From positions 1 to 64,000 of the IMG/VR virus record IMGVR_UViG_3300046517_002960: DNA of 64,000 nt, one strand, 5' to 3'. Made by a program: the position numbers and the translations under genes. Shown here in pieces: positions 1,677 through 24,016 of the stretch. The stretch's first letter is position 1. The number at the start of each line of letters is the position of its first letter. The stretch is from a virus. The notes under the pieces were generated by a model. The model ran no database searches. It was not told the origin of the DNA and saw nothing but the letters and a program-made list of their open reading frames with translations.

Positions 1677-1738
1677 GGCGAAACGCGCGGTGTGCGCGTC
1701 TGCGGGACATGGCCTACCCGCACCGACGATGCCAGGCC
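1677..1738 (+). ncRNA. Type II hammerhead-like ribozyme, copy 1
   Basis: GGC 1677-1679 (stem II), GAAA 1680-1683, stem III ACGCGC/GCGCGT (1683-1688/1694-1699) with a 5-nt loop, predicted cleavage after C1700 of GTC, stem I TGCGGG/CCCGCA (1701-1706/1717-1722), core CCGACGA 1723-1729, GCC 1731-1733 (stem II). AGGCC 1734-1738 is complementary to GGCCT in loop I. Core position 7 is C here and T in most copies, and this position is free in the hammerhead family. It has the shortest stem III, without the palindromic cap. The next ATG follows after 26 nt. Confidence 0.8.
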
Positions 1739-1764
1739 ACCGAACCAACTGATCGGGAGAGATC

Positions 1765-2508
1765 ATGTCCGACGTCATCCTGTACGCAAGCGCTGTCAAC
1801 CGCGGGCGCACCGCGTGGAACGCGACCAGCAAGTCCGCATGGACGCTGGCCGAGATCGCGGCCAACGTCGAAACCAAGTACGCGGAGAACACGCTGGTCA
1901 AGCTGGCCGCCGCCATCGCGGGCGACGACCTGTCCGGGGCCACGCTGGCCAATTACCGCACCGTGTGGCTCGCCTACGTCACCGATGAGAGCGACACGCG
2001 GGACGTCAAGAACAGCAACAGCTTCACCGTGCACGAGAAGTTCGCGAAACTGCCCGACCGCGTCAAGCTGCTGGCCAGCAAGCACTGGTCCGCGAGTGAG
2101 GCCCGCGCCTACGTCAAGGCGCTGAACGCGCCGGAGCCGGGCGAGGACGAGGTCGACGGTGAGGGCGCGGGCGAGAGTGCTGGCGCCGGCGCCGAGTCGC
2201 CCAACCGCCGTGACTGGCTGGTTAACAAGATCGCCGAGACTGAGGCCAAGCTGCTCAAGTGGTACACCGAACTGTCCGAGATTGACGCTGCGGACGACAC
2301 GGACAGCACCGACGCGGACAGCGCCGGCACCACGCCGGCTGCGCCCGTGCTTCACATCGTGGGCGGCGGCGTGCCCGAGCACGACGCCAGCGCCCCCCAC
2401 GCGGCCTGCCCCGTGTGCAAGGACCTGGGTATCGCGCCAGCCGTCACCGAGCAGGCCGGCTCCCCGCGCCGCGCCCGTCGCAACCGCCGCCAGCCGGCCG
2501 CCGCGTAA
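1765..2508 (+). CDS. Hypothetical protein with CxxC motif and basic tail
   Basis: Start preceded by GATCGGGAGAGATC. The 247 residues have an Ala-rich helical first half (about 1-120), which includes a possible helix-turn-helix-like segment around residues 28-70. An acidic linker (130-190) follows, then CPVC (about residue 217) and an Arg-rich end. DNA binding is conceivable from the helical half and the basic tail, but no family is recognised. Confidence 0.8.
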   Translation: MSDVILYASAVNRGRTAWNATSKSAWTLAEIAANVETKYAENTLVKLAAAIAGDDLSGATLANYRTVWLAYVTDESDTRDVKNSNSFTVHEKFAKLPDRVKLLASKHWSASEARAYVKALNAPEPGEDEVDGEGAGESAGAGAESPNRRDWLVNKIAETEAKLLKWYTELSEIDAADDTDSTDADSAGTTPAAPVLHIVGGGVPEHDASAPHAACPVCKDLGIAPAVTEQAGSPRRARRNRRQPAAA

Positions 2509-2521
2509 CCCGATCGCCGAG

Positions 2522-2552
2522 CCGGCCACGGTGCCCCGCGCACCGTGGCCGG
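2522..2552 (+). terminator. 13-bp GC hairpin after the gene at 1765
   Basis: CCGGCCACGGTGC (2522-2534) pairs perfectly with GCACCGTGGCCGG (2540-2552) around a 5-nt loop. There is no T-tract, so classic intrinsic termination is doubtful. It may instead stabilise the 3' end of the message. Ribozyme copy 2 starts 15 nt later. Confidence 0.55.
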
Positions 2553-2566
2553 CCGGACCAGCAAGA

Positions 2567-2650
2567 GGCGAAACGCGCGGATCCTCCGGCTGACCGGAGA
2601 GTTCCGCGCGTCTGCGGGATATGGCCTACCCGCACCGATGATGCCAGGCC
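2567..2650 (+). ncRNA. Type II hammerhead-like ribozyme, copy 2
   Basis: GGC 2567-2569, GAAA 2570-2573, stem III ACGCGCGGA/TCCGCGCGT capped by CTCCGGCTGACCGGAG, cleavage after C2612, stem I TGCGGG/CCCGCA (2613-2618/2629-2634), core CCGATGA 2635-2641, GCC 2643-2645, pseudoknot AGGCC 2646-2650. ATG 2672 follows after 21 nt. Confidence 0.8.
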
Positions 2651-2671
2651 ACCGATATCAGGAGTGATCAC

Positions 2672-2905
2672 ATGCTGTACCCGCTCAGGTACGCCCAGGT
2701 GTTCCGCGCGAACGGCACGCGCGTCGTGGCCGGCGACCACATCACCAGCCGGCTCGGCCGCCGGTACATGTTCCGCTACGCCACGGTGGCCGCGACCGAT
2801 ACCGCGTTTGGCCGCATCGTGGCCGCGCCCATCATGAGCGACGGATTCCCGCTCGGTCACAACGACGAGTTCACCGATTTCGCGTTCGGCCTGACCGTGC
2901 GCTGA
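2672..2905 (+). CDS. Hypothetical protein, 77 residues
   Basis: Start preceded by ATATCAGGAGTGATCAC. The protein is compact and beta-rich, ends in FGLTVR, and carries no Cys and no membrane segment. It lies directly downstream of ribozyme copy 2. No family recognised. Confidence 0.75.
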   Translation: MLYPLRYAQVFRANGTRVVAGDHITSRLGRRYMFRYATVAATDTAFGRIVAAPIMSDGFPLGHNDEFTDFAFGLTVR

Positions 2906-2929
2906 AAAGGGAAAGCCGCCGGCAAGCGA

Positions 2930-2938
2930 AACGCGCAA
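2930..2938 (+). ncRNA. Ribozyme remnant (GCGAAACGC)
   Basis: After the gene ending at 2905, AAGCGAAACGCGC matches the start of the ribozyme (stem II, GAAA, first bases of stem III). It then runs straight into AAGATCAGGAGACAG, so stems I and III are missing. It looks like a deletion derivative of the element. Confidence 0.5.
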
Positions 2939-2953
2939 GATCAGGAGACAGAC

Positions 2954-3106
2954 ATGATCACGATAACCGCCACCCCGCAGGTCGGCACGCCGGCCGTGCA
3001 GGACGCCGCACGTGCCCGCGCGATCACGGCCGGCGTGCCTACCCGCCAGCCTGACAGGTGGCAGCGTTACGCGGACATGGCGCAGGTCGGCTGGACCACC
3101 CATTAG
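2954..3106 (+). CDS. Hypothetical protein, 50 residues
   Basis: ATG preceded by AAGATCAGGAGACAGAC. The product starts MITITATPQVG and ends VGWTTH. Its TAG stop shares its last base with stem II of ribozyme copy 4. The MITIT start recurs at 31082 and 19464, which suggests that start regions were copied together with the ribosome-binding cassette. Function unknown. Confidence 0.7.
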   Translation: MITITATPQVGTPAVQDAARARAITAGVPTRQPDRWQRYADMAQVGWTTH

Positions 3107-3189
3107 GCGAAACGCGTGATTCTCCGGCCAGCCGGACAATCGCGCGTCCGTGCGGCGCTGGCCTGCCGCGCGCTGAATGATGCCAGGCC
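3106..3189 (+). ncRNA. Type II hammerhead-like ribozyme, copy 4
   Basis: GGC 3106-3108 overlaps the TAG stop. Stem III is ACGCGTGATT/AATCGCGCGT with a G-T pair, capped by TCCGGCCAGCCGGA. Cleavage is predicted after C3148. Stem I is CGTGCGGC/GCCGCGCG (3149-3156/3165-3172), different in sequence from copies 1-2 but still paired. The core is CTGAATGA (3173-3180): canonical C3-T4 with one extra A. GCC 3182-3184, AGGCC 3185-3189. Confidence 0.72.
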
Positions 3190-3212
3190 ACCGAACAGAT
3201 CAGGAGACAGAT

Positions 3213-3506
3213 ATGACCCGCCAGACCAGCCAGCCCGCGCAGCCCGGCAACGAGCTGTACTTCACCGCCGGGACTAAGCGCGCAGCCCGCATCGGGCGCA
3301 CGATGGTCGTCGTGACCGATGGCGCGCGGATCGAGATCACGCTGCCCGTGCGTGACGGCGAGGCGACCGCCATCACGGTCACGCGCGACCCGGACGTCAA
3401 GGTGGCGAACCGCGTGCGCAAGCCGGCGGCCGTCAAGCCGCAGGCCAGCAAGCCCGCTGCCAAGCCGCAGGCCGCGCGCAAGCAGCCCGCCGGCGCCGCC
3501 AAGTAG
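3213..3506 (+). CDS. Small protein with KPQA tail, paralog of the gene at 529
   Basis: Start ATG 3213 after AGATCAGGAGACAGAT. Residues 12-45 (NELYFTAGTKRAARIGRTMV) match the N-terminal domain of the gene at 529 in length and pattern. The last 35 residues are a Lys/Ala/Pro/Gln tail (KPAAVKPQASKPAAKPQAA). The shared architecture of compact beta domain plus basic tail suggests a common, possibly nucleic-acid-binding role. This is inferred. Confidence 0.78.
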   Translation: MTRQTSQPAQPGNELYFTAGTKRAARIGRTMVVVTDGARIEITLPVRDGEATAITVTRDPDVKVANRVRKPAAVKPQASKPAAKPQAARKQPAGAAK

Positions 3507-3591
3507 GCGAAACGCGCGTGACTCTCCGGCCAGCCGGAAGATTCCGCGCGTCCGCGAGGGATGGCCTACTCGCGCTGAATGATGCCAGGCC
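3506..3591 (+). ncRNA. Type II hammerhead-like ribozyme, copy 5
   Basis: GGC 3506-3508 overlaps the TAG stop. Stem III is ACGCGCG/CGCGCGT with the palindromic cap, and cleavage is predicted after C3552. Stem I is CGCGAG/CTCGCG (3553-3558/3569-3574), a covarying variant. The core is CTGAATGA with one extra A. GCC 3584-3586, AGGCC 3587-3591. The gene that should follow is decayed. Confidence 0.7.
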
Positions 3592-3742
3592 GCAGATCAG
3601 GAGTGACGCAGGCATGACGAATTTAGGCTGACCAGCCACCTGTGATCCGCTAGCCGCGCGCATGGCGCAGGTGACGCGGTGATACCGCACGCCGCCGGCG
3701 GCAGAACGGCGGGATTACCGGGACCGCGCACGACGACACACA
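3592..3742 (+). pseudogene. Decayed gene slot between ribozymes 5 and 6
   Basis: A good ribosome-binding site (CAGATCAGGAG) precedes ATG 3615, but that frame stops after five codons (MTNLG). No other frame gives a plausible protein before ribozyme copy 6. The spacing pattern of its neighbours suggests that a small gene once stood here. Confidence 0.4.
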
Positions 3743-3813
3743 GGCGAAACGCCGGCGGATGGAGGCGCCGGCGTCTGCGGGGCATGGCCTACCCGCACCG
3801 ATGATGCCAGGCC
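3743..3813 (+). ncRNA. Type II hammerhead-like ribozyme, copy 6
   Basis: GGC 3743-3745, GAAA, stem III ACGCCGGC/GCCGGCGT (3749-3756/3767-3774) with a plain 10-nt loop and no palindromic cap. Cleavage after C3775, stem I TGCGGG/CCCGCA (3776-3781/3792-3797), core CCGATGA 3798-3804, GCC 3806-3808, AGGCC 3809-3813. Its stem III sequence differs wholly from copies 2-5 yet pairs perfectly. Confidence 0.8.
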
Positions 3814-3834
3814 GCAGATCAGGGAAGTGATCAC

Positions 3835-4038
3835 ATGACCACCACCGACACGATGCCGCGCCCGACGCCCGCTCAGCTGCGTGAGCGCGCCGAGGCGCGC
3901 CGCGCCCACAGGACCCGTGACGCCGAGGCGCGCTGGATGCGCCAGCGCCGCCAGGCCGCGATCCGCAACGGCATGCCACGCAACACGCCGCTTACGCGCG
4001 CTGAGCTGGCTGCGCGCTGCGCCCGCGCCGGGCACTAG
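3835..4038 (+). CDS. Hypothetical Arg-rich helical protein, 67 residues
   Basis: Start after GATCAGGGAAGTGATCAC. The protein is strongly basic and helical (RERAEARRAHRTRDAEARWM), suggestive of nucleic-acid contact. The TAG stop is shared with ribozyme copy 7. No family recognised. Confidence 0.7.
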   Translation: MTTTDTMPRPTPAQLRERAEARRAHRTRDAEARWMRQRRQAAIRNGMPRNTPLTRAELAARCARAGH

Positions 4039-4124
4039 GCGAAACGCGCGGGATTGTCCGGCCAGCCGGAGGATTCCGTGCGTCTGCGGGGCGCTGGCCT
4101 GCCCCGCACCGATGATGCCAGGCC
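4038..4124 (+). ncRNA. Type II hammerhead-like ribozyme, copy 7
   Basis: GGC 4038-4040 overlaps the TAG stop. Stem III is ACGCGCGG/CCGTGCGT (G-T pair) capped by TCCGGCCAGCCGGA, and cleavage is predicted after C4084. Stem I is TGCGGGGC/GCCCCGCA (4085-4092/4101-4108). Core CCGATGA 4109-4115, GCC 4117-4119, AGGCC 4120-4124. Confidence 0.8.
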
Positions 4125-4152
4125 GCTACCCGAGACAGGTCAGGAGACAGCC

Positions 4153-4344
4153 ATGTCCAGCAGGAAAGCCGTACCCGCCGCGCTCGTCCTGCCTGCCCCG
4201 GACCGCGGGCGGGCACTGGCCGAGCTGCGCCAGTCCAACGCGTCCGGCCCGCACGGCCCGCGCTCCAAGCGGATCATCGCGCGGCGCGAGCGGCGCGGCA
4301 CCACGCAGGAGCTGCGCGACCTGCGCGGCCGGCGCCAGGACTGA
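4153..4344 (+). CDS. Hypothetical basic protein, 63 residues
   Basis: ATG 4153 after GGTCAGGAGACAGCC. The C-terminal half is rich in Arg (KRIIARRERRGTTQELRDLR). Resembles its neighbours at 3835 and 4452 only in size and charge. Function unknown. Confidence 0.65.
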   Translation: MSSRKAVPAALVLPAPDRGRALAELRQSNASGPHGPRSKRIIARRERRGTTQELRDLRGRRQD

Positions 4345-4346
4345 GA

Positions 4347-4430
4347 GGCGAAACGCGCGGAATCCTCCGGCTGACCGGAGACTCCGCGCGTCCGCAGGAC
4401 ATGGCCTGCCTGCGCTGATGATGCCAGGCC
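4347..4430 (+). ncRNA. Type II hammerhead-like ribozyme, copy 8 (canonical core)
   Basis: GGC 4347-4349, GAAA, stem III ACGCGCGGA/TCCGCGCGT with palindromic cap, cleavage after C4392. Stem I CGCAGG/CCTGCG (4393-4398/4409-4414). Core CTGATGA 4415-4421, which exactly matches the hammerhead consensus. GCC 4423-4425, AGGCC 4426-4430. This is the best copy to test first. Confidence 0.85.
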
Positions 4431-4451
4431 GCACACGATCAGGAGACCGAC

Positions 4452-4625
4452 ATGAACGGCACGCACCGCCATGACAGGACCGAACCGGGCAAGCACGAGC
4501 AGCCGCACTACGTCACGCGCTGCTGCCGATCCGGGCGGGAACACCGGCCGGTGTTCACCTACCAGCTGCGCGACACCAAGCTGGCGCTGACCAGCCCGCG
4601 CCCGGCGCAGGAGGCACGGGCATGA
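4452..4625 (+). CDS. Hypothetical protein, 57 residues
   Basis: ATG 4452 after CGATCAGGAGACCGAC. His- and Arg-rich (MNGTHRHDRTEPGKHEQPHY) with one CC pair. It overlaps the next gene by ATGA, so translation is probably coupled. No family recognised. Confidence 0.65.
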   Translation: MNGTHRHDRTEPGKHEQPHYVTRCCRSGREHRPVFTYQLRDTKLALTSPRPAQEARA

Positions 4626-4942
4626 GCGGCAGGATCACGCCCCCGACCTGGTACCTCGGCGCGCGGCACTACCAGCTGGAAGTCACCGACAGCAACTGGA
4701 TCCCGGTTCACCTGTCCGTCACGACCCGCGCGTACGGCGGATCCTGGCACGACACCGCCAGCATCGCGCGGGACTGCCCGCCAGCCACCGGGATGACAGG
4801 CCGCACGTGCCGCCGCCGGTACCCGTGGCCCGTTGACCGGGACCACCAGCGCCCGAACGGGCCGAGCCCGCACCAGAACCGGGATGACCCGCGCATCCCC
4901 GGCTTCGAGACCCCGCACGACCCGTACCGGGGCTACGTGTGA
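4622..4942 (+). CDS. Hypothetical protein, 106 residues
   Basis: Starts in the ATGA overlap with the gene at 4452 and runs up to the start of the next gene at 4942. Trp/Tyr-rich first half (WYLGARHYQLEVTDSNW), Pro/Arg-rich second half. No domain recognised. Confidence 0.7.
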   Translation: MSGRITPPTWYLGARHYQLEVTDSNWIPVHLSVTTRAYGGSWHDTASIARDCPPATGMTGRTCRRRYPWPVDRDHQRPNGPSPHQNRDDPRIPGFETPHDPYRGYV

Positions 4943-5190
4943 TGCCGTCCATCTACGCACCTAACGACGCGGTCGCCCTGCTCCAGAAGCTGCTCGCCGC
5001 CGCGCGTGACCTGACCGAGCCGAGCGAGCCGAACGCCGAGTACATCCGCGGGCAGGCCAACCTGATCGCGGATGCGTGCGGGCTCGGCAGTGACCGGCAG
5101 GACAGCGACGACGTGTGCGAAGCGCTCACCAGGGCGATCACGGGCGCGCACCTCAACATCGTCGGCGAAACCTACTACCCGGACTTCTAA
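4942..5190 (+). CDS. Hypothetical helical protein, 82 residues
   Basis: ATG 4942 overlaps the upstream TGA (TGATG); a GTG three bases earlier is also possible. Mostly helical (VALLQKLLAAARDLTEPSEP). Function unknown. It ends with TAA and is followed by ribozyme copy 9. Confidence 0.7.
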   Translation: MPSIYAPNDAVALLQKLLAAARDLTEPSEPNAEYIRGQANLIADACGLGSDRQDSDDVCEALTRAITGAHLNIVGETYYPDF

Positions 5191-5206
5191 GCGAGCCCGG
5201 TTGCCA

Positions 5207-5291
5207 GGCGAAACGGCGCGATTCTCCGGCCAGCCGGAGGATCGTGCCGTCTGCGGGGCGCTGGCCAGTCCCGCACCGATGATGCCAGGCC
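5207..5291 (+). ncRNA. Type II hammerhead-like ribozyme, copy 9
   Basis: GGC 5207-5209, stem III ACGGCGCGAT/ATCGTGCCGT (one G-T pair) with the CCAG-loop palindrome, cleavage after C5251. Stem I TGCGGG/CCCGCA (5252-5257/5270-5275), core CCGATGA 5276-5282, GCC 5284-5286, AGGCC 5287-5291. The outer stem III differs from copies 1-8 with compensating changes. Confidence 0.8.
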
Positions 5292-5312
5292 ACGCACGAT
5301 CAGGAGACCGAC

Positions 5313-5957
5313 ATGCACATCACGTACACGATGGCCGGCGCAGGCGAAGCCGAAGGCGTCACGCTCCACGCGACCAGAACCGGCCGAGACGCGGTTGACG
5401 TCCTGCGCGCCATCGAGAACACCGCCGGCCTGACGCTCACCCGCGTCCAGCTCAGGCCCGACGACAACCCGGACGCATGGGCGCTGAACGAGGTGCTGTG
5501 GGCCGCGCAGGCGGCGGGCTGCCCGGTGCGCCGCCAGTGGGTCCGCACGCGCGACGTGCGCATGGGCGATGAACTGGCGCACAAGCTGTCCGACACGCCG
5601 TGGACGTACACGCCGGTCACCGGCTGGGCCGACCGCCTGCTGGAGCTGTCGCGGTTCGGCGGCGGCCTGGCTGACGTCACGCACCGGACGTTCCGGGTCT
5701 CGGCCGCGCCGTGGTGGGTCCGCGACGACAACATGATGCTGACCTGCGACCTGGACGGCGAAGCACTGATCAGGCTGCGGCCGATCCGCGAGCCGGGCCG
5801 TTTCCGCTGCCCGTGCTGCGGCGATGACGTCATCTCCGCAGACGGCCGCGACTGGGTGTGCGGCGACTGCGCCGGAGCCGGCTGCGAGCAGTCGCGCGAC
5901 GCGTGCGGCGAGCTGAACTGGTGGAACTGCCAGCGCGATGATGAGGACGGTGCATGA
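5313..5957 (+). CDS. Hypothetical protein with C-terminal zinc ribbon
   Basis: Start after CGATCAGGAGACCGAC. The 214-residue protein ends in two CxxC pairs (FRCPCCGDD... and VCGDC, about residues 167-194) that should bind one zinc ion, followed by a further Cys pattern. The N-terminal 150 residues show mixed alpha/beta character with no recognised family. Overlaps the next small membrane protein by ATGA. Confidence 0.75.
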   Translation: MHITYTMAGAGEAEGVTLHATRTGRDAVDVLRAIENTAGLTLTRVQLRPDDNPDAWALNEVLWAAQAAGCPVRRQWVRTRDVRMGDELAHKLSDTPWTYTPVTGWADRLLELSRFGGGLADVTHRTFRVSAAPWWVRDDNMMLTCDLDGEALIRLRPIREPGRFRCPCCGDDVISADGRDWVCGDCAGAGCEQSRDACGELNWWNCQRDDEDGA

Positions 5958-6076
5958 TGCGCCTGCTGGACATGATGATCTTCGGCGTGCCCATGCTGCT
6001 GTTCGTCATCATCGCCGGGTACCTGATCTGGCGCGGGCGCCACCGCAGCGGGCGCGGGCTGTGGTGGGAGCTGTGA
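5954..6076 (+). CDS. Small single-pass membrane protein, 40 residues
   Basis: MMRLLDMMIFGVPMLLFVII begins a hydrophobic helix (about residues 7-25) followed by a basic tail, so the C-terminus is probably cytoplasmic. Both ends overlap neighbours by 4 nt. One of about ten such peptides in the window. Confidence 0.65.
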   Translation: MMRLLDMMIFGVPMLLFVIIAGYLIWRGRHRSGRGLWWEL

Positions 6077-6249
6077 GCACACGCTGGTTCGTCGCGGCCA
6101 GGCCCGGCACGGCAATGGTGTTCGGCGTCAAGGGCACCAGGGTCGTGTGGACGTCGCCGCGCTACACGGGCCGCAGGGGCGTGCCGCTGTCGTTCCTGCG
6201 AGCGCAGATGCGGCAGCAGGGCCGCGCGTTCTACGAGATCACCCGATAG
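6073..6249 (+). CDS. Hypothetical protein, 58 residues
   Basis: GTG start inside the GTGA overlap with the membrane peptide. Basic, beta-rich (STRWFVAARPGTAMVFGVKG). The TAG stop is shared with ribozyme copy 10. Function unknown. Confidence 0.65.
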   Translation: MSTRWFVAARPGTAMVFGVKGTRVVWTSPRYTGRRGVPLSFLRAQMRQQGRAFYEITR

Positions 6250-6332
6250 GCGAAACGCGCGGATCCTCCGGCTGGCCGGAGAGTTCCGTGCGTCCGCAGG
6301 ACATGGCCTGCCTGCGCCGATGATGCCAGGCC
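6249..6332 (+). ncRNA. Type II hammerhead-like ribozyme, copy 10
   Basis: GGC 6249-6251 overlaps the TAG stop. Stem III ACGCGCGGA/TTCCGTGCGT (G-T pair) with palindromic cap, cleavage after C6294. Stem I CGCAGG/CCTGCG (6295-6300/6311-6316), core CCGATGA 6317-6323, GCC 6325-6327, AGGCC 6328-6332. Stem I equals that of copy 8 while the core has C at position 4. Confidence 0.8.
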
Positions 6333-6360
6333 GCACACCTAGTGATCAGGGGAAACGATC

Positions 6361-7032
6361 ATGACTCACAGCACGCCCGGTGACCGGGCACGGATCGCGG
6401 CTGCCGAAGCCGCGCAGGCACGGATGCTCGCGGCGCTGCCGGACTTCCCGCAGTTCGGCTTCTACGTCAAGACCGGGCTGGCCGGCTACGGGCCGGACCT
6501 GGACGAGAACGACTACCCGGCGCGCAGCTGGGAAGACGTCGCGCACCAGGTCGCGGAGGAGCTGTCCTTCATGGCGGACTTCAACGCCGAGGGCGCATCC
6601 GCACTGGCCGACCAGGCGCGCGAGGCGCACGACGAGGCGCGCGAGGTTTTCCGGCTGTACGCGTCGGTCGCGGACTACCAGGGGATCGCGGACACGTACC
6701 GCGATGCGGACGATGCGCGCCGGCTCGCGGACGAGCTGGGCACGCTCGCGGCCAACTTCTCCAACCTGGCCAAAGAGCTGAACCCCGCGCCGCTGTACCA
6801 GGGCCGGCCGGAGCTGCGGCACGCGCGCATCTGGGACCTGATCAGCCAGCTCCCGGTGTACGTGTCGGACAACTTGAAGCTGTACGTCTGGGAATGCGAG
6901 GAAGACCCTGGCGATCCCGACGACGCGGAGCCAGGCGGCGGCTACGGGCCGGCCGGGGCCGGTCACACCGACGAGCACGACATCGCCCGCATGGAGGGCG
7001 ACGGCGCCGGCCTGTACTGCGCAGGGGCGTAA
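6361..7032 (+). CDS. Hypothetical helical acidic protein, 223 residues
   Basis: Start after GTGATCAGGGGAAACGATC. Long Ala/Glu/Asp-rich helices (about 60-140, LADQAREAHDEAREVFRLYA) suggest a coiled or helical-bundle protein. The end is Gly-rich. No signal peptide and no recognised family. Confidence 0.75.
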   Translation: MTHSTPGDRARIAAAEAAQARMLAALPDFPQFGFYVKTGLAGYGPDLDENDYPARSWEDVAHQVAEELSFMADFNAEGASALADQAREAHDEAREVFRLYASVADYQGIADTYRDADDARRLADELGTLAANFSNLAKELNPAPLYQGRPELRHARIWDLISQLPVYVSDNLKLYVWECEEDPGDPDDAEPGGGYGPAGAGHTDEHDIARMEGDGAGLYCAGA

Positions 7033-7035
7033 TCC

Positions 7036-7049
7036 TCCGGCCGGCCGGA
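7036..7049 (+). repeat. Solo palindrome TCCGGCCGGCCGGA
   Basis: Perfect palindrome three bases after the TAA at 7032, with none of the ribozyme core around it. The next start (7073) has its own ribosome-binding site. Confidence 0.7.
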
Positions 7050-7072
7050 CAAATCACGAACGGGAGACAGGC

Positions 7073-7643: not shown

Positions 7644-7645
7644 CC

Positions 7646-9124: not shown

Positions 9125-9210
9125 GGCGAAACGCGCGGAACCCTCCGGCCGACCGGAAATTCCGCGCGTCTGCGGGGCGCTGGCCTGCCCCGCACCGACG
9201 ATGCCAGGCC
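9125..9210 (+). ncRNA. Type II hammerhead-like ribozyme, copy 11
   Basis: GGC 9125-9127, stem III ACGCGCGGAA/TTCCGCGCGT with a CCGA-loop cap, cleavage after C9170. Stem I TGCGGGGC/GCCCCGCA (9171-9178/9187-9194), core CCGACGA 9195-9201 (position 7 is C, as in copies 1 and 12), GCC 9203-9205, AGGCC 9206-9210. Next ATG after 16 nt. Confidence 0.8.
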
Positions 9211-9226
9211 ATCACAGGAGGCAGTC

Positions 9227-11184: not shown

Positions 11185-11627
11185 TGAGCGTGGAAAGCCG
11201 TCGCGCGCAACTGCGCAGCCAGATCGCTGAGCCAGTCATCACCGGGGACATGACCCGCGCCGAGCGCGATGCCGAGATGGACCGCTGGCTAGCGGACTGC
11301 CAGGCTCAGAGCAAGCGGCTGGACGAGGAGCACATGCTGCTCGGGATCGGCCGGAGCGCGGCGGTCTGCATGACGCACGAGATCACCGGCCCCTGGCTGA
11401 GCGCCACGGCCAGCCGGTGGTACCTGGCCCTGCCCGAGCGGTACATGACCCCGGCCAGCATGGCCCGGCCGGACTGGGATCACAGCCACTACCCGCACGA
11501 CGAGCACGGGCACATCGGCCGGGTCACCACGCTCCAGCGGCCGAAGACCCAGGCAGACACCGAAGCGGAGAAAATGGTCGCCGCCATCCTGGCAGACATC
11601 GCCCGCGAGGACGCGGAGCCGGGATAG
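11184..11627 (+). CDS. Hypothetical protein, 147 residues
   Basis: ATG overlaps the upstream TGA by one base. Helical and charged start (1-50), with a His-rich stretch DWDHSHYPHDEHGHIGR (about 98-114) that could bind metal. The TAG stop is shared with ribozyme copy 12. Confidence 0.72.
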   Translation: MSVESRRAQLRSQIAEPVITGDMTRAERDAEMDRWLADCQAQSKRLDEEHMLLGIGRSAAVCMTHEITGPWLSATASRWYLALPERYMTPASMARPDWDHSHYPHDEHGHIGRVTTLQRPKTQADTEAEKMVAAILADIAREDAEPG

Positions 11628-11694
11628 GCGAAACCGGGCACGGAAAGCCCGGTCTGCGGGAGGGTGGCCGTTCCCGCACCGACGATGCCAGGCC
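11627..11694 (+). ncRNA. Type II hammerhead-like ribozyme, copy 12
   Basis: GGC 11627-11629 overlaps the TAG stop. Stem III ACCGGGC/GCCCGGT (11633-11639/11647-11653) with a plain 7-nt loop and no palindrome. Cleavage after C11654. Stem I TGCGGGA/TCCCGCA (11655-11661/11672-11678), core CCGACGA 11679-11685, GCC 11687-11689, AGGCC 11690-11694. Both stems are new sequence variants that still pair. Confidence 0.82.
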
Positions 11695-11723
11695 AGGTAC
11701 AGCAGACACGATCAGGAGAACGC

Positions 11724-11844: not shown

Positions 11845-11927
11845 GGCGAAACGCGCGGATTCTCCGGCTGGCCGGAGGATCCGCGCGTCTGCGGGAGACG
11901 GCCTCCCCGCACCGATGATGCCAGGCC
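11845..11927 (+). ncRNA. Type II hammerhead-like ribozyme, copy 13
   Basis: GGC 11845-11847, stem III ACGCGCGGAT/ATCCGCGCGT plus inner TCTCCGG/CCGGAGG (about 16 bp in all, 4-nt loop), cleavage after C11889. Stem I TGCGGG/CCCGCA (11890-11895/11906-11911), core CCGATGA 11912-11918, GCC 11920-11922, AGGCC 11923-11927. Confidence 0.8.
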
Positions 11928-11949
11928 AGGACCAAGATCAGGAGACAGC

Positions 11950-13644: not shown

Positions 13645-14193
13645 GTGCGATGGAAAGCTGTGCCTGGCTGGGAGGGTGCCTACGAGGTGTCGGATCACGG
13701 CCAGGTCAGGTCACTGGACCGCATCGTCCCGGCGCTGGACAGGTGGGGAAACCTGACGCTGTACCAGCGCCGGGGCATCATCCTGAAACAGCGGCTTAAC
13801 CGCGATGGCTACCCGGTCGTGGGCCTGTCCTCTGGCGGGCATACGACGACGAAACCAGTTCACGCGCTTGTGCTATCGGCTTTCGCTGGCCTATGCCCGC
13901 ACGGATTGCAAGCGTGCCATGGTCCAGGCGGACGGGCGGATAACCGGTGGCCCGAGAACCTGAGCTGGGGAACGGCTGTGGACAACCATGGGCGAGACAG
14001 ACGGCGCGACCACACGACATCGCGCGGCGAACATGACGGCAAGGCGAAACTAACCTGGGAACAAGTATGCGAAATACGCATGATCACAGGCACATCCCAG
14101 CAGGCCATAGCCGACGCATACAGCGTGACACAGTCAACCGTCAGCAAGATAAAGCTAGGGCGTCTCTGGCAATACCCGCCAGAGGAATGGTAG
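13645..14193 (+). CDS. NUMOD4 / HNH homing endonuclease
   Basis: GTG start gives MRWKAVPGWEGAYEVSDHGQ, the NUMOD4 DNA-binding motif (residues 2-50). The HNH nuclease region follows with H73, CH at 91-92, N100 and WPENLSWGT at 102-110. A C-terminal helix-turn-helix (about 130-175, QQAIADAYSVTQSTVSKIKL) is typical of this class. It is free-standing and has no SD-like sequence of the local type. Its GC content is visibly lower than that of neighbours, which indicates independent acquisition. It sits between the gene at 12261 and ribozyme copy 14. Confidence 0.92.
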   Translation: MRWKAVPGWEGAYEVSDHGQVRSLDRIVPALDRWGNLTLYQRRGIILKQRLNRDGYPVVGLSSGGHTTTKPVHALVLSAFAGLCPHGLQACHGPGGRADNRWPENLSWGTAVDNHGRDRRRDHTTSRGEHDGKAKLTWEQVCEIRMITGTSQQAIADAYSVTQSTVSKIKLGRLWQYPPEEW

Positions 14194-14219: not shown

Positions 14220-14305
14220 GGCGAAACGGCGCGCATTCTCCGGCTGACCGGAGGATCGCGCCGTCTGCGGGGCGCTGGCCTGCCCTGCACCGATGATGCC
14301 AGGCC
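14220..14305 (+). ncRNA. Type II hammerhead-like ribozyme, copy 14
   Basis: GGC 14220-14222, stem III ACGGCGCG/CGCGCCGT with palindromic cap, cleavage after C14265. Stem I TGCGGGGC/GCCCTGCA (14266-14273/14282-14289, one G-T pair), core CCGATGA 14290-14296, GCC 14298-14300, AGGCC 14301-14305. Confidence 0.8.
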
Positions 14306-14323
14306 AGGAAGCAGGAGACAGAC

Positions 14324-18153: not shown

Positions 18154-18178
18154 CAGAACACGAGATCAGGAGACTCAC

Positions 18179-18349
18179 ATGTCCGAGAAGCAGCCCCGGT
18201 TCAGCATGACGGTGACCTACACCGACGACCAGGTGCCCGGCTACCACGCCGGCACCCTGGCGGCCGTCGCGAAGTGGCTCGGCCGGCAGGTGAACGTGGA
18301 CAGCGCGCAGATCGCGCCCGTGGCCGGCGAGAGCCAGCCGGGCAGCTAG
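18179..18349 (+). CDS. Hypothetical protein, 56 residues
   Basis: ATG after GAGATCAGGAGACTCAC. Contains a short helix (LAAVAKWLGRQVNV). The TAG stop is shared with ribozyme copy 15. Confidence 0.65.
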   Translation: MSEKQPRFSMTVTYTDDQVPGYHAGTLAAVAKWLGRQVNVDSAQIAPVAGESQPGS

Positions 18350-18433
18350 GCGAAACGGCGCGATTCTCCGGCCAGCCGGAGGATCGCGCCGTCTGCGGGG
18401 CGCTGGCCAGCCCCGCACCGATGATGCCAGGCC
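18349..18433 (+). ncRNA. Type II hammerhead-like ribozyme, copy 15
   Basis: GGC 18349-18351 overlaps the TAG stop. Stem III ACGGCGCGAT/ATCGCGCCGT with palindromic cap, cleavage after C18393. Stem I TGCGGGGC/GCCCCGCA (18394-18401/18410-18417), core CCGATGA 18418-18424, GCC 18426-18428, AGGCC 18429-18433. Confidence 0.82.
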
Positions 18434-18454
18434 GGAGATCAGGAGATGACGCAC

Positions 18455-19030
18455 ATGACCGAGAGCTACGAGCGCGGCGGGTACACGATAACCATCAGCT
18501 ACGACCCAGGCGTGCCTGACCCGCGCGGGGACTTCGCCGGCTGCGGGCTGGTCCTGTCGCACAGGCGGTACAGCTGGCCGAACGACGCGGAAATCAGCTT
18601 CGGGATCTTCGACGGCTGGGAGGACGTCGCAGCCGAGCTGCGCATGCATCACGGCGCGCTGGTCATCATGCCGGTCTGGATGATCGACCACAGCGGCACG
18701 ACGATGCGCGCGGCTGACGAGAACCCGTTCCGCGATCCGTGGGATTCCGGCCAGCTCGGCTTCGCCTACATCACGGCGGAAACCTGGGCCATGACTCAGG
18801 GCGCTGCGTGGGAGGGCACGGACGAGCAGGTCGCGCAGGCCCGAAAGCTGATCGAGGACGAGGTAGAGACCTTCGGCGAGTGGTGCGCCGGCGAGACCTA
18901 CCAGTACGAGATCACCAGCCCGGACGGCGACCAGGCGGGCGCATGCAGCGGCTACATCGGCTGGGACTCCGCGGTTAGCGCGGCTGACGCCGAGGCAGAC
19001 CGCCTGGCCGCCGCCGCGAGCAGCAAGTAA
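18455..19030 (+). CDS. Conserved phage-type protein with WDSGQ motif
   Basis: ATG 18455 is preferred over ATG 18446 because only the former is correctly spaced from GATCAGGAG. The 191-residue protein has the order GAL-VIMPVWMIDHSGTTM, then PFRDPWDSGQLGFAYIT (about residues 79-107). I recognise this pattern from phage and mobile-element hypothetical proteins (DHSG ... WDSGQxG.xY). The biochemical role is unknown. It supports a phage origin. Confidence 0.78.
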   Translation: MTESYERGGYTITISYDPGVPDPRGDFAGCGLVLSHRRYSWPNDAEISFGIFDGWEDVAAELRMHHGALVIMPVWMIDHSGTTMRAADENPFRDPWDSGQLGFAYITAETWAMTQGAAWEGTDEQVAQARKLIEDEVETFGEWCAGETYQYEITSPDGDQAGACSGYIGWDSAVSAADAEADRLAAAASSK

Positions 19031-19050
19031 CGACGATCAGGAGCAGCGAC

Positions 19051-19467
19051 ATGAGCGGCAACATCTACGAGGGCCTGGGACCGCACGGCCCGTTCACGAC
19101 CAGGCTGGCCGAGCAGGAGCAGGCCAGCGACACCGGCACACTCCAGCCGGGCGACCAGGGCTACTGGCAGGTGTGGGGCGCGCACCCCATGGACATCCGG
19201 CCGGGCGACCTGGTGCTGGCGCGCTGGTCGCAGGACAACGAGCGCGAGCGCGGCATCCACCACTTCGCCGAGTACGAGGTGCTGGAAATGGCCCCGTGGC
19301 CGCTGCGCGAGGATGGCCGGGACGACCTGCGCAACTCGTGCCAGGTCCGGTTCCTCACCACGTCCAGCACGCCTGACCATCCGGTGTACGGCTCGGTCGG
19401 GATGCTCCAGGTAATGCGGCTGGTCAGGCCCGGGACCGGCAACTTCCTGGGAAAGTACGTCCGGTGA
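19051..19467 (+). CDS. Hypothetical protein, 138 residues
   Basis: Start after CGATCAGGAGCAGCGAC. Beta-barrel-like (DIRPGDLVLARWSQDNERER), with a GDLVLA motif as in small barrel folds. Function unknown. Overlaps the next gene by GTGA. Confidence 0.7.
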   Translation: MSGNIYEGLGPHGPFTTRLAEQEQASDTGTLQPGDQGYWQVWGAHPMDIRPGDLVLARWSQDNERERGIHHFAEYEVLEMAPWPLREDGRDDLRNSCQVRFLTTSSTPDHPVYGSVGMLQVMRLVRPGTGNFLGKYVR

Positions 19468-19778
19468 TCACGATCACGATCCCGCACCCGACCGACCCGT
19501 CCTACGACGAACGGCACGGCGTGGCCGCATGGCAGGAGACGCTGACCGCCGCGCCGCGCGTATGGGAGGCTGCCGGGGCTGACCTCCGCCAGTTCGAGGG
19601 GCGCCGATCTGGCGCCTGCGCCGAGAATGTCCGCGCCGCCATCGGGCACATCCTCGAAAGGCCGGACGACTTCATCGGCAAGGCCAGCTATTACGACCTG
19701 CGCGCCACGGTGGCCAGCCTGACCGGGCTGTTCTTCACGCTCCGGGAGCGCCCGGAAGGGAGGGTCCATGTTGAGTAA
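19464..19778 (+). CDS. Hypothetical protein, 104 residues
   Basis: GTG start gives MITITIPHPTDPSYDERHGV. Its end overlaps the start of the gene at 19768 by 11 nt. No family recognised. Confidence 0.68.
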   Translation: MITITIPHPTDPSYDERHGVAAWQETLTAAPRVWEAAGADLRQFEGRRSGACAENVRAAIGHILERPDDFIGKASYYDLRATVASLTGLFFTLRERPEGRVHVE

Positions 19779-20124
19779 CGAGTGCGCGTCGTGCGGGACG
19801 GAGGACCTGGTCGACCGGGAGCTGCGCTACGAGGCGTACCCGCCCGGACCCGGCAGGTACGAGCCAGAAACCTGCGAGCACTGCGGTGCCCCGCTGTGCG
19901 ACAGCTGCGCGCTGGCCGGCGCCCGCCATGACTGCCAGGACGAGCCTGCCGCCGTGAGAGAACGGCTGGAATACCTGCGCGGCGAGCTGCGCGCAGAGCG
20001 GATCAGCTACGGCGGGCTGGCCGAGCTGCAAGACCTGACCGGGCACATCGAGGACGGCGACACCGAGCTGCTTGAAGCGGCCGGCGTGCCTGAGGCCAGC
20101 CCGGACAACGAACAGGAGACCTGA
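19768..20124 (+). CDS. Zinc-ribbon protein with a shared GDTELLEAAGV domain
   Basis: ATG after GGAAGGGAGGGTCC. CASCG, CEHCG and CDSC (residues 6-51) should bind zinc. The C-terminal part (RLEYLRGELRAERISYGGLA ... GDTELLEAAGV) is clearly related to residues 65-110 of the protein at 27899. It ends in DNEQET, the translated ribosome-binding cassette of the next gene. Confidence 0.75.
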   Translation: MLSNECASCGTEDLVDRELRYEAYPPGPGRYEPETCEHCGAPLCDSCALAGARHDCQDEPAAVRERLEYLRGELRAERISYGGLAELQDLTGHIEDGDTELLEAAGVPEASPDNEQET

Positions 20125-20125
20125 C

Positions 20126-20627
20126 ATGCCCAGACCCGCGATGACGGCGAACGACTTCCGCCGCAACGCCGCCGAGGCCCAGGACCCGCAGATGCTCGGC
20201 GCGCAGGACAAGATGCGCTACGCGTGCTGGCTGATCCGGTTCCACGACCCCCGGGCCGGCATCGGCCACCCGGAGAACCGCTTCTGGCGCGCCCTGGCTG
20301 ACGACCCTGGCGCACTGGGCGCAGATGCCGGACAAGACCCGCGAGTACACCGGGGGCGACTGGTCGGCGTTCAACAACGCGCAGGTGATGGCGGACGGCT
20401 ACATCGAGCTGTCCCCGGTCAGCGACGAGAAGAAGCTGGACCTGCTGCGGCGGTTCTACCCGCCCGATCCCGAACCCGCGGCGGCGGTGCACGCCAGCCA
20501 CGAGCCGCTTACCGCTGACAACGTGACGGCGGGCGAGCGCAACCACCCGGACGGCTACGTGTACTGCGGCCGGTGCCTGCGCCCGCTGGGGGAGCTGGGC
20601 GGGCCGTGCGGGGAGAACCCGGCGTGA
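20126..20627 (+). pseudogene. Frameshifted gene, paralog of the gene at 35385
   Basis: The frame from ATG 20126 matches the protein at 35385 (AQDPQMLGAQDKMRYACWLI against ESDPEMLTSVDRLYYASWLL) up to about base 20303. The match then continues in the next frame (LAHWAQMPDKTREYTGGDWS against LEWAAHIPERTGGSQDWRAF). Dropping one G from CTGACGACCCTGG restores LADTLAHWAQ. The second frame ends at 20627 with CGRC...PC, a possible zinc site. It may be a sequencing error, a real mutation or a programmed frameshift. Confidence 0.72.
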
Positions 20628-20800
20628 TCACCGTCGTCTCGCCGCTGGACGAGGCCAAGTCCGGCGAGATGCGCAGCCGGTACCTCGCCTGGGAACTGGC
20701 GGGATGCCGGCCGCACGCATTCGCGCCGGAACCTGCGGTGACGTGGCTGTACTGCGAGCGGTGCGGCTGCGAGCGCGGCGCGGTCCAGCACACGAGCTGA
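20624..20800 (+). CDS. Hypothetical protein with CERC motif, 58 residues
   Basis: GTG start in the GTGA overlap. Starts MITVVSPLDEAKSGEMRSRY and ends WLYCERCGCERGAVQHTS, a probable half zinc site. Unknown. Confidence 0.62.
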   Translation: MITVVSPLDEAKSGEMRSRYLAWELAGCRPHAFAPEPAVTWLYCERCGCERGAVQHTS

Positions 20801-20812
20801 CCGGAGGCGGGC

Positions 20813-21172
20813 ATGAGCACCACGACGACCGTCTACCTGCTGCACTACGAGAGGCCGATCGGCGACACCGCCCGGCCCCGCATGACGGCGCAGCACTACG
20901 TCGGCTCGTACTGGAACCCGGGCCGGATCGCCAGCCACCGGTCCGGGACGAGCGGCGTGCCCATCACCGCGGCGTTCGCCCGGTGCGGCATCGGCTTCAC
21001 CGTCGCGCGGCTGGCCCGGGGCGGCAAGACGCTGGAGCGGGCGATCAAGAACGCCGGGCAGCACCGCCGGCACTGCCCGGTATGCACGCCGTCGCCGTGG
21101 CGCGGCCGGTGGGGCGAGCTGGTCATCCCAGCCCCTGACGGCGGCTGGCCTGACGGCGCAGACCCCGGCTGA
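20813..21172 (+). CDS. GIY-YIG-like nuclease domain protein
   Basis: ATG after ACCGGAGGCGGGC. The GIY-YIG elements are VYLLHYE (7-13) and HYVGSYW (28-34), with a basic/His patch (H42), the candidate catalytic Glu in LERAIKN (E75), and CPVC (88-91). The family pattern in phages ends with exactly such a CPxC. It probably cuts or processes DNA. Freestanding and short (119 residues), so it could also be a degenerate member. Confidence 0.65.
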   Translation: MSTTTTVYLLHYERPIGDTARPRMTAQHYVGSYWNPGRIASHRSGTSGVPITAAFARCGIGFTVARLARGGKTLERAIKNAGQHRRHCPVCTPSPWRGRWGELVIPAPDGGWPDGADPG

Positions 21173-21175
21173 CCC

Positions 21176-21189
21176 TCCGGCCGGCCGGA
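21176..21189 (+). repeat. Solo palindrome TCCGGCCGGCCGGA
   Basis: Directly after the stop of the gene at 20813, followed by a ribosome-binding cassette (CAGATCAGGAGACG). Confidence 0.7.
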
Positions 21190-21226
21190 CGATCCATGAC
21201 AGAACCAGATCAGGAGACGAGAACTG

Positions 21227-21607
21227 ATGACGACACGCGATGAGGCCAGGCGCACGGCGATGGCCTACGCCTGGGGCTGCGAAGACACAAGCAGCACCAA
21301 GACCGCATACCGGCCCGAGCTGGGCCAGGTCAGCGGCGACTGGGCGTTCGGCGAGGCGTACGCGCAGGGCCAGGACGACTACAACAGCGAGCGCCGGGGC
21401 GACATGACCTCGGTGCAGGCCGCGTACGGGAACTGGCAGGCCAGCGGCGGCAGGTCGGTGTTCAAGCGGGGCAGCCTGACGCTGGGCGACGAGCAGCGCG
21501 CCGAGCTGCGGGCGTCCTGGCCGTACCCGGACGCCCGGCCCGGAGCCTATGAGGGGTACTGGAGACTACAGGACCGGATGCAGGACGAAGCCTGGGCGCT
21601 GCTATGA
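21227..21607 (+). CDS. Hypothetical protein, 126 residues
   Basis: Start after GATCAGGAGACGAGAACTG. Aromatic-rich and helical (AMAYAWGCEDTSSTKTAYRP). Overlaps the next gene by ATGA. Unknown. Confidence 0.7.
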   Translation: MTTRDEARRTAMAYAWGCEDTSSTKTAYRPELGQVSGDWAFGEAYAQGQDDYNSERRGDMTSVQAAYGNWQASGGRSVFKRGSLTLGDEQRAELRASWPYPDARPGAYEGYWRLQDRMQDEAWALL

Positions 21608-21789
21608 GCCAGGAGCAGGCACAGGTCAGCAAGGCCAGTGCGGCACAGCGCGCGAGCCGCCGCACCCGCAAGACGCGGGGCGGCGGCGAGCCGGACAGCC
21701 CCTGGTGGCAGGAAGCCGCACCGTGGTACCAGGGCGGGAACCAGGACCGGGGCACGCAGGCAGGAGACGAGGACGGAAGCGATGACTGA
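21604..21789 (+). CDS. Hypothetical protein, 61 residues
   Basis: Starts in the ATGA overlap. Arg/Ala-rich start and acidic disordered end (QAGDEDGSDD). Overlaps the next ATG by several bases. Unknown. Confidence 0.6.
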   Translation: MSQEQAQVSKASAAQRASRRTRKTRGGGEPDSPWWQEAAPWYQGGNQDRGTQAGDEDGSDD

Positions 21790-22099
21790 CCTGCGGATCC
21801 CGCTGACCCCGAAGCAGGCGGACTGGCTGGCTGACCTGGCGGCCAGCGGTTCTGAGAGCTACGCGGAGGCCCTGGACGCCGGGGCGCGGATCGTGGCTGA
21901 TCCCCATGGCGGTGACGTGCTCATCGTCCCGCCCGCTGCCGCGCGCCCGCTGGGGCTGGCGGTGGGCATCCGAGCTGACCTGGCGGACGAGGGCGAGTAC
22001 TCCATCGGGGTGCGCAGTTCCGTGCTGGGCCTGGCCCGCAAGCTGACCGCGAACGGGATCTGCAACGCGGCCCCGCTGATCCCCGATGACAGGAGCTGA
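21782..22099 (+). CDS. Hypothetical protein, 105 residues
   Basis: ATG 21782 after GAGACGAGGACGGAAGCG. Begins MTDLRIPLTPKQADWLADLA. Mixed alpha/beta. Stop TGA overlaps ATG 22099 by one base. Confidence 0.68.
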   Translation: MTDLRIPLTPKQADWLADLAASGSESYAEALDAGARIVADPHGGDVLIVPPAAARPLGLAVGIRADLADEGEYSIGVRSSVLGLARKLTANGICNAAPLIPDDRS

Positions 22100-22545
22100 T
22101 GACGATGTGGACGATCGAATCCGCTATCCGGCAAGCGGTGCACGGCCAGCCGGGCGACCTGACCGACGACGCCCGGCTGTTCCTGCACGAGCAGGTCCAG
22201 CAGTACGTGAACGGCAAACAGGTCCTGCTCGCGGCGGCCACGGCAGTCATGCTGCTGGACGCGATCGCAGAACTGCGGCTGGAGACGGCAAGCGCGCAGC
22301 AGGAGCCCGCCGCCCAGGCAGAGGGCGTCAAGCACGTCCTGGCCGCCGTAGCCGGAACCGTATTCCGCAGCGGGATAGGCGAAGTGATCATCCTGCTCGA
22401 TACCGCTGACTACGTCATCAGCGTGGACAGCGACGGCGATACGGCCAGCGCATATCTCGTCACCGTGCCGCCCGCTGACATCGCGCAGGCCATGGACGCC
22501 GACCCGCGCGAGATCGGCGGCTGGTCCACCGGCTACGACATCTGA
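22099..22545 (+). CDS. Hypothetical protein, 148 residues
   Basis: ATG overlaps the upstream stop. Helical first half (HEQVQQYVNGKQVLLAAATA) with a hydrophobic but probably not membrane-spanning patch, beta-rich second half. No family recognised. Confidence 0.7.
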   Translation: MTMWTIESAIRQAVHGQPGDLTDDARLFLHEQVQQYVNGKQVLLAAATAVMLLDAIAELRLETASAQQEPAAQAEGVKHVLAAVAGTVFRSGIGEVIILLDTADYVISVDSDGDTASAYLVTVPPADIAQAMDADPREIGGWSTGYDI

Positions 22546-22575
22546 CCACCGGAAATGACAGCGCAGGAGACGAAA

Positions 22576-23034
22576 ATGACGACCATGACCGAGACACAGC
22601 CGGCCAGCCCCCAGGCCCGCCAGGATGCCGCGCGGGCAGGCCGGCAGGCCGCCGAGGACGACTTCGCACGGCTGGCCGGGGACCGCGATGCGCTACGGAA
22701 CGCATGGCTGGCCGCGTACACGCACAAGTTCGCGGAGCTGGCGGCGCCGTGCGCGACCGAAGCCCGGCTCATCGCGGCCGGGCGGGTGCCCGTGTTCCAC
22801 GCCGGGCAGCGGATCGAGTTCGCTAGCTGGGATCTGCTGGCGCTGGGCCGGGGCGAGTGGCAGGCGGGCGAGGTCGACAGCTACTACGAGCCGGACTGGC
22901 AGCCGGTCTACCCCGGCCCGGTGCTGCGCCTGGACGTCCGGGTGATCGGGAAGCGCGGCCAGCCGATCGGGAAGCCGATCGAGGTCAGCGAGTACCAGGT
23001 GCGCGTGCCGCAGGACGCGGAGGTGACGGCATGA
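22576..23034 (+). CDS. Hypothetical protein, 152 residues
   Basis: ATG 22576 after GCAGGAGACGAAA. Helical start (1-65), then a small beta domain (GQRIEFASWDLLALGRGEWQ). Overlaps the next gene by ATGA. Unknown. Confidence 0.72.
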   Translation: MTTMTETQPASPQARQDAARAGRQAAEDDFARLAGDRDALRNAWLAAYTHKFAELAAPCATEARLIAAGRVPVFHAGQRIEFASWDLLALGRGEWQAGEVDSYYEPDWQPVYPGPVLRLDVRVIGKRGQPIGKPIEVSEYQVRVPQDAEVTA

Positions 23035-23891
23035 GCGGCTGGACGCCAGAGCAGCTAGACGCGCTGAACGCCGAAGCTGAGCACAAGCAGCGGATGGAAG
23101 ACGACAGCGCCGACCCCGGCGACCCGGCTGAGCGCGAAGCGTGGGAAGCCGGGAACACGAGCGGGCACTCACCCTCAGACTGGCACGCGAGCCTGCCCTT
23201 CGAGGACGGGGAGACCCCGTACGGCCGGTGGCTGCGTGAGATGCGGCTGATGGAACTGGCGGGCATCGACCCGGCGAACGCCCCGCTGCGCGAAGCCTGG
23301 CAGCAGGCCATGGCGGCGCTGCCGGCGGAAGCGGGCGAAACCGCATACGGCCTGGCGATCCGCGCCCGTCGCGAAGCCTGGGACACCCTGCTGGCCGCGC
23401 ACGAATGCCAGCTGCGTACCTGCGTGTACTGCGGGGTGCCGGGCCTGGCTGAGCATTTCCAGGCCGTCAACGGCCGGAACTGGGCCTGCAAGCAGGGCCG
23501 GCTGTGCGACCTGCGGTACGCCCTGAACGGCAAGCTGTCCCAGGGGCTGCCCGACAACAGCGTGGCGTACTACGTGCAGACCCTGGTCCGCGAGCTGGCC
23601 CAGATGGCGCGCGATGACCGGGCGGCAGCCGGGCACCTGGCCGACCCGTGGGGCAGGCACACCGCCCGCCAGCACCGCATGCTGAGCACCCAGGACCTGG
23701 CCACGTTGCACGTCACCCTGACCGCCGCCGCCGGGTGGCTGCAGGACGCTGGCCGGGCGGACTGGGGCCAGGCGCTCGCCCAGGCCCGCGCATTGCACGG
23801 CTGCAAGCGCTGCGGCGCGATGGGGCCGCAGCCGTGCACCACCAACAGCGGCGCCGAGCGGCACAGCTGGCACCAAGGCCGGGCTTTCTGA
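23031..23891 (+). CDS. Hypothetical protein with two zinc-type Cys clusters, 286 residues
   Basis: Starts in the ATGA overlap. CVYCGVPG...CKQGRLC (about residues 129-158) and CKRCGAMGPQPC (about 258-269) look like zinc sites flanking a helical region. Function unknown, possibly nucleic-acid binding. Confidence 0.75.
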   Translation: MSGWTPEQLDALNAEAEHKQRMEDDSADPGDPAEREAWEAGNTSGHSPSDWHASLPFEDGETPYGRWLREMRLMELAGIDPANAPLREAWQQAMAALPAEAGETAYGLAIRARREAWDTLLAAHECQLRTCVYCGVPGLAEHFQAVNGRNWACKQGRLCDLRYALNGKLSQGLPDNSVAYYVQTLVRELAQMARDDRAAAGHLADPWGRHTARQHRMLSTQDLATLHVTLTAAAGWLQDAGRADWGQALAQARALHGCKRCGAMGPQPCTTNSGAERHSWHQGRAF

Positions 23892-23930
23892 TAGCCGGCT
23901 GACCCGAACACAGATGATCACCACGTAGGA

Positions 23931-24016
23931 GGCGAAACGGGCGCGATTCTCCGGCTGGCCGGATGATCGCGCCCGTCTGCGGGACGGTGGCCTTCCCGCA
24001 CCGATGATGCCAGGCC
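23931..24016 (+). ncRNA. Type II hammerhead-like ribozyme, copy 16 (last in the array)
   Basis: GGC 23931-23933, stem III ACGGGCGCGAT/ATCGCGCCCGT with palindromic cap, cleavage after C23977. Stem I TGCGGGA/TCCCGCA (23978-23984/23994-24000), core CCGATGA 24001-24007, GCC 24009-24011, AGGCC 24012-24016. No further full copy is seen downstream. Confidence 0.82.

Follow-up and report, generated by a model that had tools for sequence, protein, structure and literature searches.

The DNA analysed here (the window) covers the first 64 kb of the IMG/VR virus record IMGVR_UViG_3300046517_002960, which is 190,216 bases long, and no nucleotide match of this window to any phage record was found. Between positions 1677 and 24017, co-oriented genes are separated by 15 motifs resembling type II hammerhead ribozymes. 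Across the whole window, these motifs are found on the + strand only and all are intergenic. Each copy follows the plan GGC-GAAA-stem III-GUC-stem I-core-U-GCC-AGGCC, and the circular order of a type II hammerhead, which the original prediction had read from the letters alone, holds in all 15.

A descriptor that demands all three stems (I, II, III) together with the core returned 15 matches on the + strand and none on the - strand, the same 15 intergenic copies as originally predicted. When the window was simulated 60 times with an order-2 Markov model (3.8 Mb), the descriptor gave 0 matches. The stem-free core pattern alone recovers 14 of the 15 copies. In an Rfam search of the window with cmscan, 14 copies were matched by Hammerhead_II (RF02276) and the copy at 3106 was missed. 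Of these 14, two clear the curated gathering cut-off of 37 bits (43.6 bits at 11627 and 40.9 bits at 23931) and 12 fall below it. The type I and III hammerheads, pistol, twister and the other Rfam ribozymes gave nothing better, and the cmscan of 4227 families retained only Hammerhead_II here. A model of our own (R1) was derived from these same copies, and the scores it gives them are not independent evidence. No comparable motifs were found in the remaining 126 kb of the record. Candidate ribozymes beyond 1.7-24 kb proved to be merely weak palindrome noise, and short-core-pattern matches at 611, 16332, 22163, 31254 and 56798 were rejected because the other parts of the motif are absent.

The copies are numbered along the + strand, with Rfam scores in brackets; unless stated otherwise, their core carries C at position 4 (C4). 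Copy 1 (1677-1739; core CCGACGA; 31.1 bits) has a short stem III and a predicted cut after 1700, and copy 2 (2567-2651; 29.4 bits) a predicted cut after 2612. Copy 3 (3106-3189; predicted cut after 3148) and copy 4 (3506-3592; predicted cut after 3552; 25.8 bits) share the core CTGAATGA, which contains an extra A (the A6a insertion). Cuts are predicted after 3775 in copy 5 (3743-3814; 30.4 bits) and after 4084 in copy 6 (4038-4125; 30.4 bits). Copy 7 (4347-4431; predicted cut after 4392; 31.0 bits) is the sole one with the consensus core CTGATGA. It is followed by copy 8 (5207-5292; predicted cut after 5251; 28.3 bits), copy 9 (6249-6333; predicted cut after 6294; 23.7 bits) and copy 10 (9125-9211; core CCGACGA; predicted cut after 9170; 29.7 bits). 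Copy 11 (11627-11695; core CCGACGA; predicted cut after 11654) again has a short stem III, and copy 12 (11845-11928; predicted cut after 11889; 33.0 bits) lies close behind it. The last three are copy 13 (14220-14306; predicted cut after 14265; 34.9 bits), copy 14 (18349-18434; predicted cut after 18393; 33.2 bits) and copy 15 (23931-24017; predicted cut after 23977).

Placement relative to genes

All 15 copies stand between genes, on the coding strand and in tandem among co-oriented genes, and nearly all gaps of at least 90 nucleotides (nt) in the array region are occupied by a copy. The upstream stop codon may overlap the motif or lie hundreds of bases away; the first G of the motif lies within that codon in six copies, among them copies 3, 6, 9, 11 and 14. 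The motif end (one base past AGGCC) precedes the start codon by 15-28 nt, so that the originally predicted placement before starts stands and its range of 16-29 nt is replaced. Since the upstream distance varies widely while the downstream one stays within these narrow bounds, the element is tied to the downstream gene. From the predicted cut to the start codon we measured 56-69 nt in all copies, with two starts (6361 and 18455) corrected by eye; the uncorrected script gives 52-69 nt, having picked an ATG 9 nt too early for copy 14. Copy 4 is followed only by an open reading frame of 5 codons. Of ten genes that follow ribozymes, only two had a PHROG match, in each case without a known function. 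A weak test for a sigma-70-like promoter gave no match in the first 20 kb. A NUMOD4 homing-endonuclease-like gene (13645-14190, +) stands directly before copy 13.

Covariation, pseudoknot and folding

The original prediction held that stems I and III change on both sides at once, and this was borne out by strand swaps and by alignment sliding. In an alignment-free count that starts at the core and moves outward, stem III is 96% paired; exchanging 3' strands among the copies lowers this to 72%, and 0 of 5000 permutations were as high as the observed 96%. Stem I pairs at 100%, against 92% with swapped strands, and 1 of 5000 permutations was as high. The count used 16 rows, one of which is a misparsed overlap of copy 8 that depresses the stem III value. 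In a MAFFT alignment with the named structure, 97% of cells pair, which falls to 31-42% when partners are slid by 1-3 columns, and cells changed on both sides number 12, compared with 3.8 in shuffles. The copies share kinship, and these pairing statistics are not probabilities. Stem II is invariant and hence uninformative for covariation.

The pseudoknot predicted between the stem I loop and AGGCC, a feature of most but not all type II hammerheads, is present as described: four invariant pairs join loop I to the 3' tail, with flanking pairs in most copies. It is nearly invariant inside the window, and between phages both sides change, from UGGCCU/AGGCCA in the window to UGACCU/AGGUCA in a 210-kb relative (introduced below) and UUGCCCU/AGGGCAA in another phage. 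In 12 copies, copy 2 among them, stems I and III appear in the minimum-energy fold, with z between -0.7 and -4.7 (-3.6 for copy 6, -4.1 for copy 12 and -4.7 for copy 14, the most stable fold). Nested folding cannot display the pseudoknot, and stem II there competes with the 3' AGGCC.

These data bear on the notion that the motifs are repeats acting at the DNA level, such as operators, repeats linked to gene starts or a small mobile hairpin, with no more than a resemblance to hammerheads. Solo hairpins like the stem III tip do occur in about ten other gaps, and a start-associated sequence, GATCAGGAGA, precedes many genes. A DNA repeat would, however, not account for covarying helices and a covarying pseudoknot, a complete catalytic core in the right circular order and Rfam matches, and we regard this explanation as highly improbable.

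A divergent catalytic core

GAAA, GTC, C3, G5, A6, G8, A9, GGC/GCC and AGGCC are kept in 15 of 15 copies, and the catalytically needed G8, G12 and GUC are unaltered in every one; loops and stems vary. The original prediction had singled out core position 7 as the varying base. Its variability is not denied, but position 4 varies most, with U4 replaced by C4 in 12 of the 15 copies. The strict core CUGANGA, which includes U4, is therefore not that of the array as a whole and is complete only in copy 7. An alternative core register that restores U4 was rejected, as it disrupts more core bases. A coupling of C4 to the first stem I pair is seen in the window and is absent in the 210-kb relative, and for this reason we read it as shared descent.

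U4 is nearly invariant in hammerheads; a viroid variant with U4C was slow in vitro and sufficient in vivo and for infectivity (as cited in PMC3088659), and a natural A6a insertion showed low activity (PMC3088659). Since natural C4 and A6a variants with some activity exist (PMC3088659), we name the copies with these changes core variants rather than strict type II members. As both changes have been reported to lower activity elsewhere, cleavage should not be assumed, and by analogy C4 probably makes it slower than in hammerheads with the consensus core. One may ask whether the elements are crippled hammerheads retained for their structure, as stabilisers of the 5' untranslated region or as a switch of ribosome access, with cleavage slow or absent. 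Such a role would fit the C4 and A6a changes, both of which have weakly active natural counterparts, and a stem III that in most copies is a long, two-part helix tipped by a dispersed hairpin, much longer than that of Streptomyces phage R4 (discussed below). A purely structural role would nevertheless not need G8, G12 and GUC, which are kept throughout, and U4C is enough for viroid infectivity (PMC3088659). We find this account unlikely.

C4 is rare elsewhere. Among about 135 other phage copies, collected with patterns allowing either base, it is convincing only in the 210-kb relative, two other matches having marginal stems; a scan of IMG/VR viral contigs for copies that combine C4 with GCCAG, the window's own record excluded, returned solely the same relative. 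The restriction of C4 to this phage and one relative, mixed with U4 copies in the same array, could point to conditional ribozymes, in which weakened cleavage is gated by a phage or host factor, an ion level or the translation state, giving timed expression; regulated cleavage has been suggested for slow phage variants (PMC3088659). This proposal lacks a candidate factor or ligand, no additional conserved aptamer-like domain was seen, and we hold it to be quite improbable. The additional U before GCC is not special, being found in 100 of 143 phage type II copies in a sample enriched by the search pattern.

A second array in a distant relative

Relatives were located through alignment of the helicase; searches with the gene that follows copy 15 and with the DNA polymerase found none. 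The 210-kb record IMGVR_UViG_3300037258_000590 is a distant relative whose helicase is 43-44% identical. It has 11 model matches, several of them decayed. Like the window, it carries its array in a partly homologous region and has C4 in some copies; unlike the window, it has a GACC/GGTC pseudoknot in nearly all copies. Three orthologous genes are preceded by a ribozyme in both phages, namely those after copy 5, copy 8 (59% identity over 80 aa) and copy 11.

On average, copies of the window are 80% identical to one another, those of the relative 79%, and copies compared across the two phages 71%; copies at orthologous sites are no more alike than others. Because copies resemble those of their own genome more, the comparison indicates concerted evolution or separate expansions in the two genomes. 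None of three additional relatives has more than one copy, and the two inspected carry U4; as two of these three records are short, this no more than suggests an expansion.

A proposed role in message processing

We consider it probable that the array consists of lineage-specific, amplified type II pseudoknotted hammerheads with a divergent core, acting as mRNA processors in cis. The proposal starts from what was observed directly, that is sequence, order, covariation, placement and retention before orthologous genes. Transcription through the array, cleavage, protection of the ends and an effect on expression are what we infer. RNA polymerase would read through the + strand gene array, and each element would fold and cut itself 3' of GUC. 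This would leave the upstream message with the stem III hairpin, long in most copies, at its 3' end, followed by a single overhanging base that carries a 2',3'-cyclic phosphate. The downstream message would begin at the first base pair of stem I, which would bear a 5'-hydroxyl. Its leader of about 56-69 nt would contain stem I, then the pseudoknot, then the ribosome-binding site, and each cistron would become independent of the others in stability and translation. The label "early", given to this transcript in the original prediction, finds no support in this analysis.

Cleavage could also be followed by ligation, giving spliced or circular RNAs between ribozymes, which paired ribozymes in one transcript can do in principle. 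No RtcB-like ligase was found in the record, such products were sought with phage clusters and none were found (PMC3088659), and we give this idea hardly any credence.

Several observations weigh against cis-processing by active ribozymes. Twelve of the Hammerhead_II matches lie under the curated cut-off, at E 0.0025-2.2. The minimum-energy fold is not a hammerhead in copies 1, 7 and 9, which include the only copy with a consensus core. U4C in 12 copies and A6a in two are associated, by analogy, with reduced activity. The constancy of the pseudoknot within each genome could come from shared recent origin instead of selection. Cutting into single-gene messages is still the best reading, with activity uncertain owing to C4. 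A more tentative extension, which we think rather doubtful, is that the copies form a natural hammerhead subfamily with C4 in its uridine turn, dispersed and tuned or gated, in which partial or conditional cutting would set the relative expression of neighbouring phage genes.

The retention of ribozymes before orthologous genes, despite their homogenisation within each genome, argues for a real role in mRNA processing, as does the recurrence of arrays, at an almost constant distance ahead of start codons, in phages that are unrelated. The C4 core would also offer a natural test of how strict the U4 requirement is.

Solo hairpins and other features of the record

A solo hairpin, TCTCCGGCTAGCCGGACAATCAC (1640-1666, +), is like the stem III tip and stands without a ribozyme. 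The solo palindromic hairpin CCGGCYRGCCGG is present at 1648, 7037, 7648, 9972, 12215, 15981, 21177, 26198, 29558 and 29849. These hairpins are often followed by AATCAC and a ribosome-binding site, and they are of the same type as the stem III tip in most ribozymes; they are possibly a source, a remnant or a separate regulatory element. A candidate truncated remnant, AGCGAAACGCGC (2925-2936, +), lies immediately upstream of the ribosome-binding site that serves the gene at 2954 and is possibly a decayed ribozyme copy. The start-associated GATCAGGAGAC stands a few bases before many start codons in window positions 1-47000. A repetitive coding stretch at 660-1200, made of GCCGAGCCCAAG repeats, lies in the gene at 529-1281. 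A flavohemoprotein-like gene with a globin and an oxidoreductase NAD-binding domain is found at 55325-56452 (-), and 38 predicted tRNA genes cluster at about 149,960-157,547 of the record.

Comparison with known systems

The original prediction had assumed that only single hammerheads were known in phages. This does not hold: type II hammerheads, their pseudoknot and prophage clusters flanking single genes were described in 2011 (PMC3088659), and R4-type phages carry 9-11 copies. The cutting of phage transcripts into single-gene messages had likewise already been proposed and in part tested, with cleavage of polycistronic RNA by related clustered hammerheads shown both in vitro and in E. coli (PMC3088659). 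Hammerheads are also reported to be enriched near Mu-like phage genes (PMC10085705). Many bacterial and phage hammerheads have been known since 2011, though no proven function was found in the accessible literature. What is new here is how large the array is, the lineage with C4, the finding that ribozymes have stayed before orthologous genes, and the connection to R4, which can serve as a laboratory system.

Among 50 viral records with the pattern, three have at least 11 matches and several at least 5-7; in the roughly 55 records examined, no other array is as large as the window's, with its 15 copies. One of the three is Streptomyces phage Paedore (at least 11 type II matches). The densest array seen is in a 4166-base contig, with at least 7 type II matches in 4.2 kb. 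The cut-to-start distance in other array phages is mostly 50-64 nt by script, with similar values in unrelated phages. The related Streptomyces phage R4 has 9 copies by descriptor at 41.8-49.5 kb, which are unannotated, its record holding only coding-sequence annotations in this stretch. In R4, ribozymes overlap the very small annotated genes gp60.1, gp67.1 and gp75.1, and one copy lies inside the annotated start of gp72 (Ocr-like anti-restriction), before the likely true start. R4 infects laboratory Streptomyces, and the function of such an array is therefore directly testable. No description of arrays in R4-like phages was found in the accessible literature, most subscription papers being outside the search.

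R4-like phages (R4, Paedore and relatives) resemble the window in having 9-12 type II copies before small genes and a comparable 46-75 nt from cut to start codon. They differ in a U4 core throughout, a short stem III and a mostly AGCC-type pseudoknot. The position of R4 gp72 after a ribozyme recalls ardA after hammerheads (PMC3088659). With the prophage clusters, for example the Agrobacterium ardA triple, the window shares several intergenic ribozymes per predicted transcript and a proposed production of single-gene messages; the examples tested there are small, such as that triple, whereas the window has 15 copies over 22 kb of a 190-kb record (PMC3088659). The pseudoknotted hammerhead structure 8YDC (PMC11300833) likewise has a core in which a pseudoknot replaces loop-loop contacts, but it is a designed two-strand RNA with the consensus U4. 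With RF02276 the copies share the order GGCGAAA...GUC...CNGANGA...GCC, the pseudoknot from loop I to the sequence after stem II and the phage setting, and they depart from it in C4 (12 of 15), A6a (two copies) and a mostly long, two-part stem III with a dispersed hairpin at its tip.

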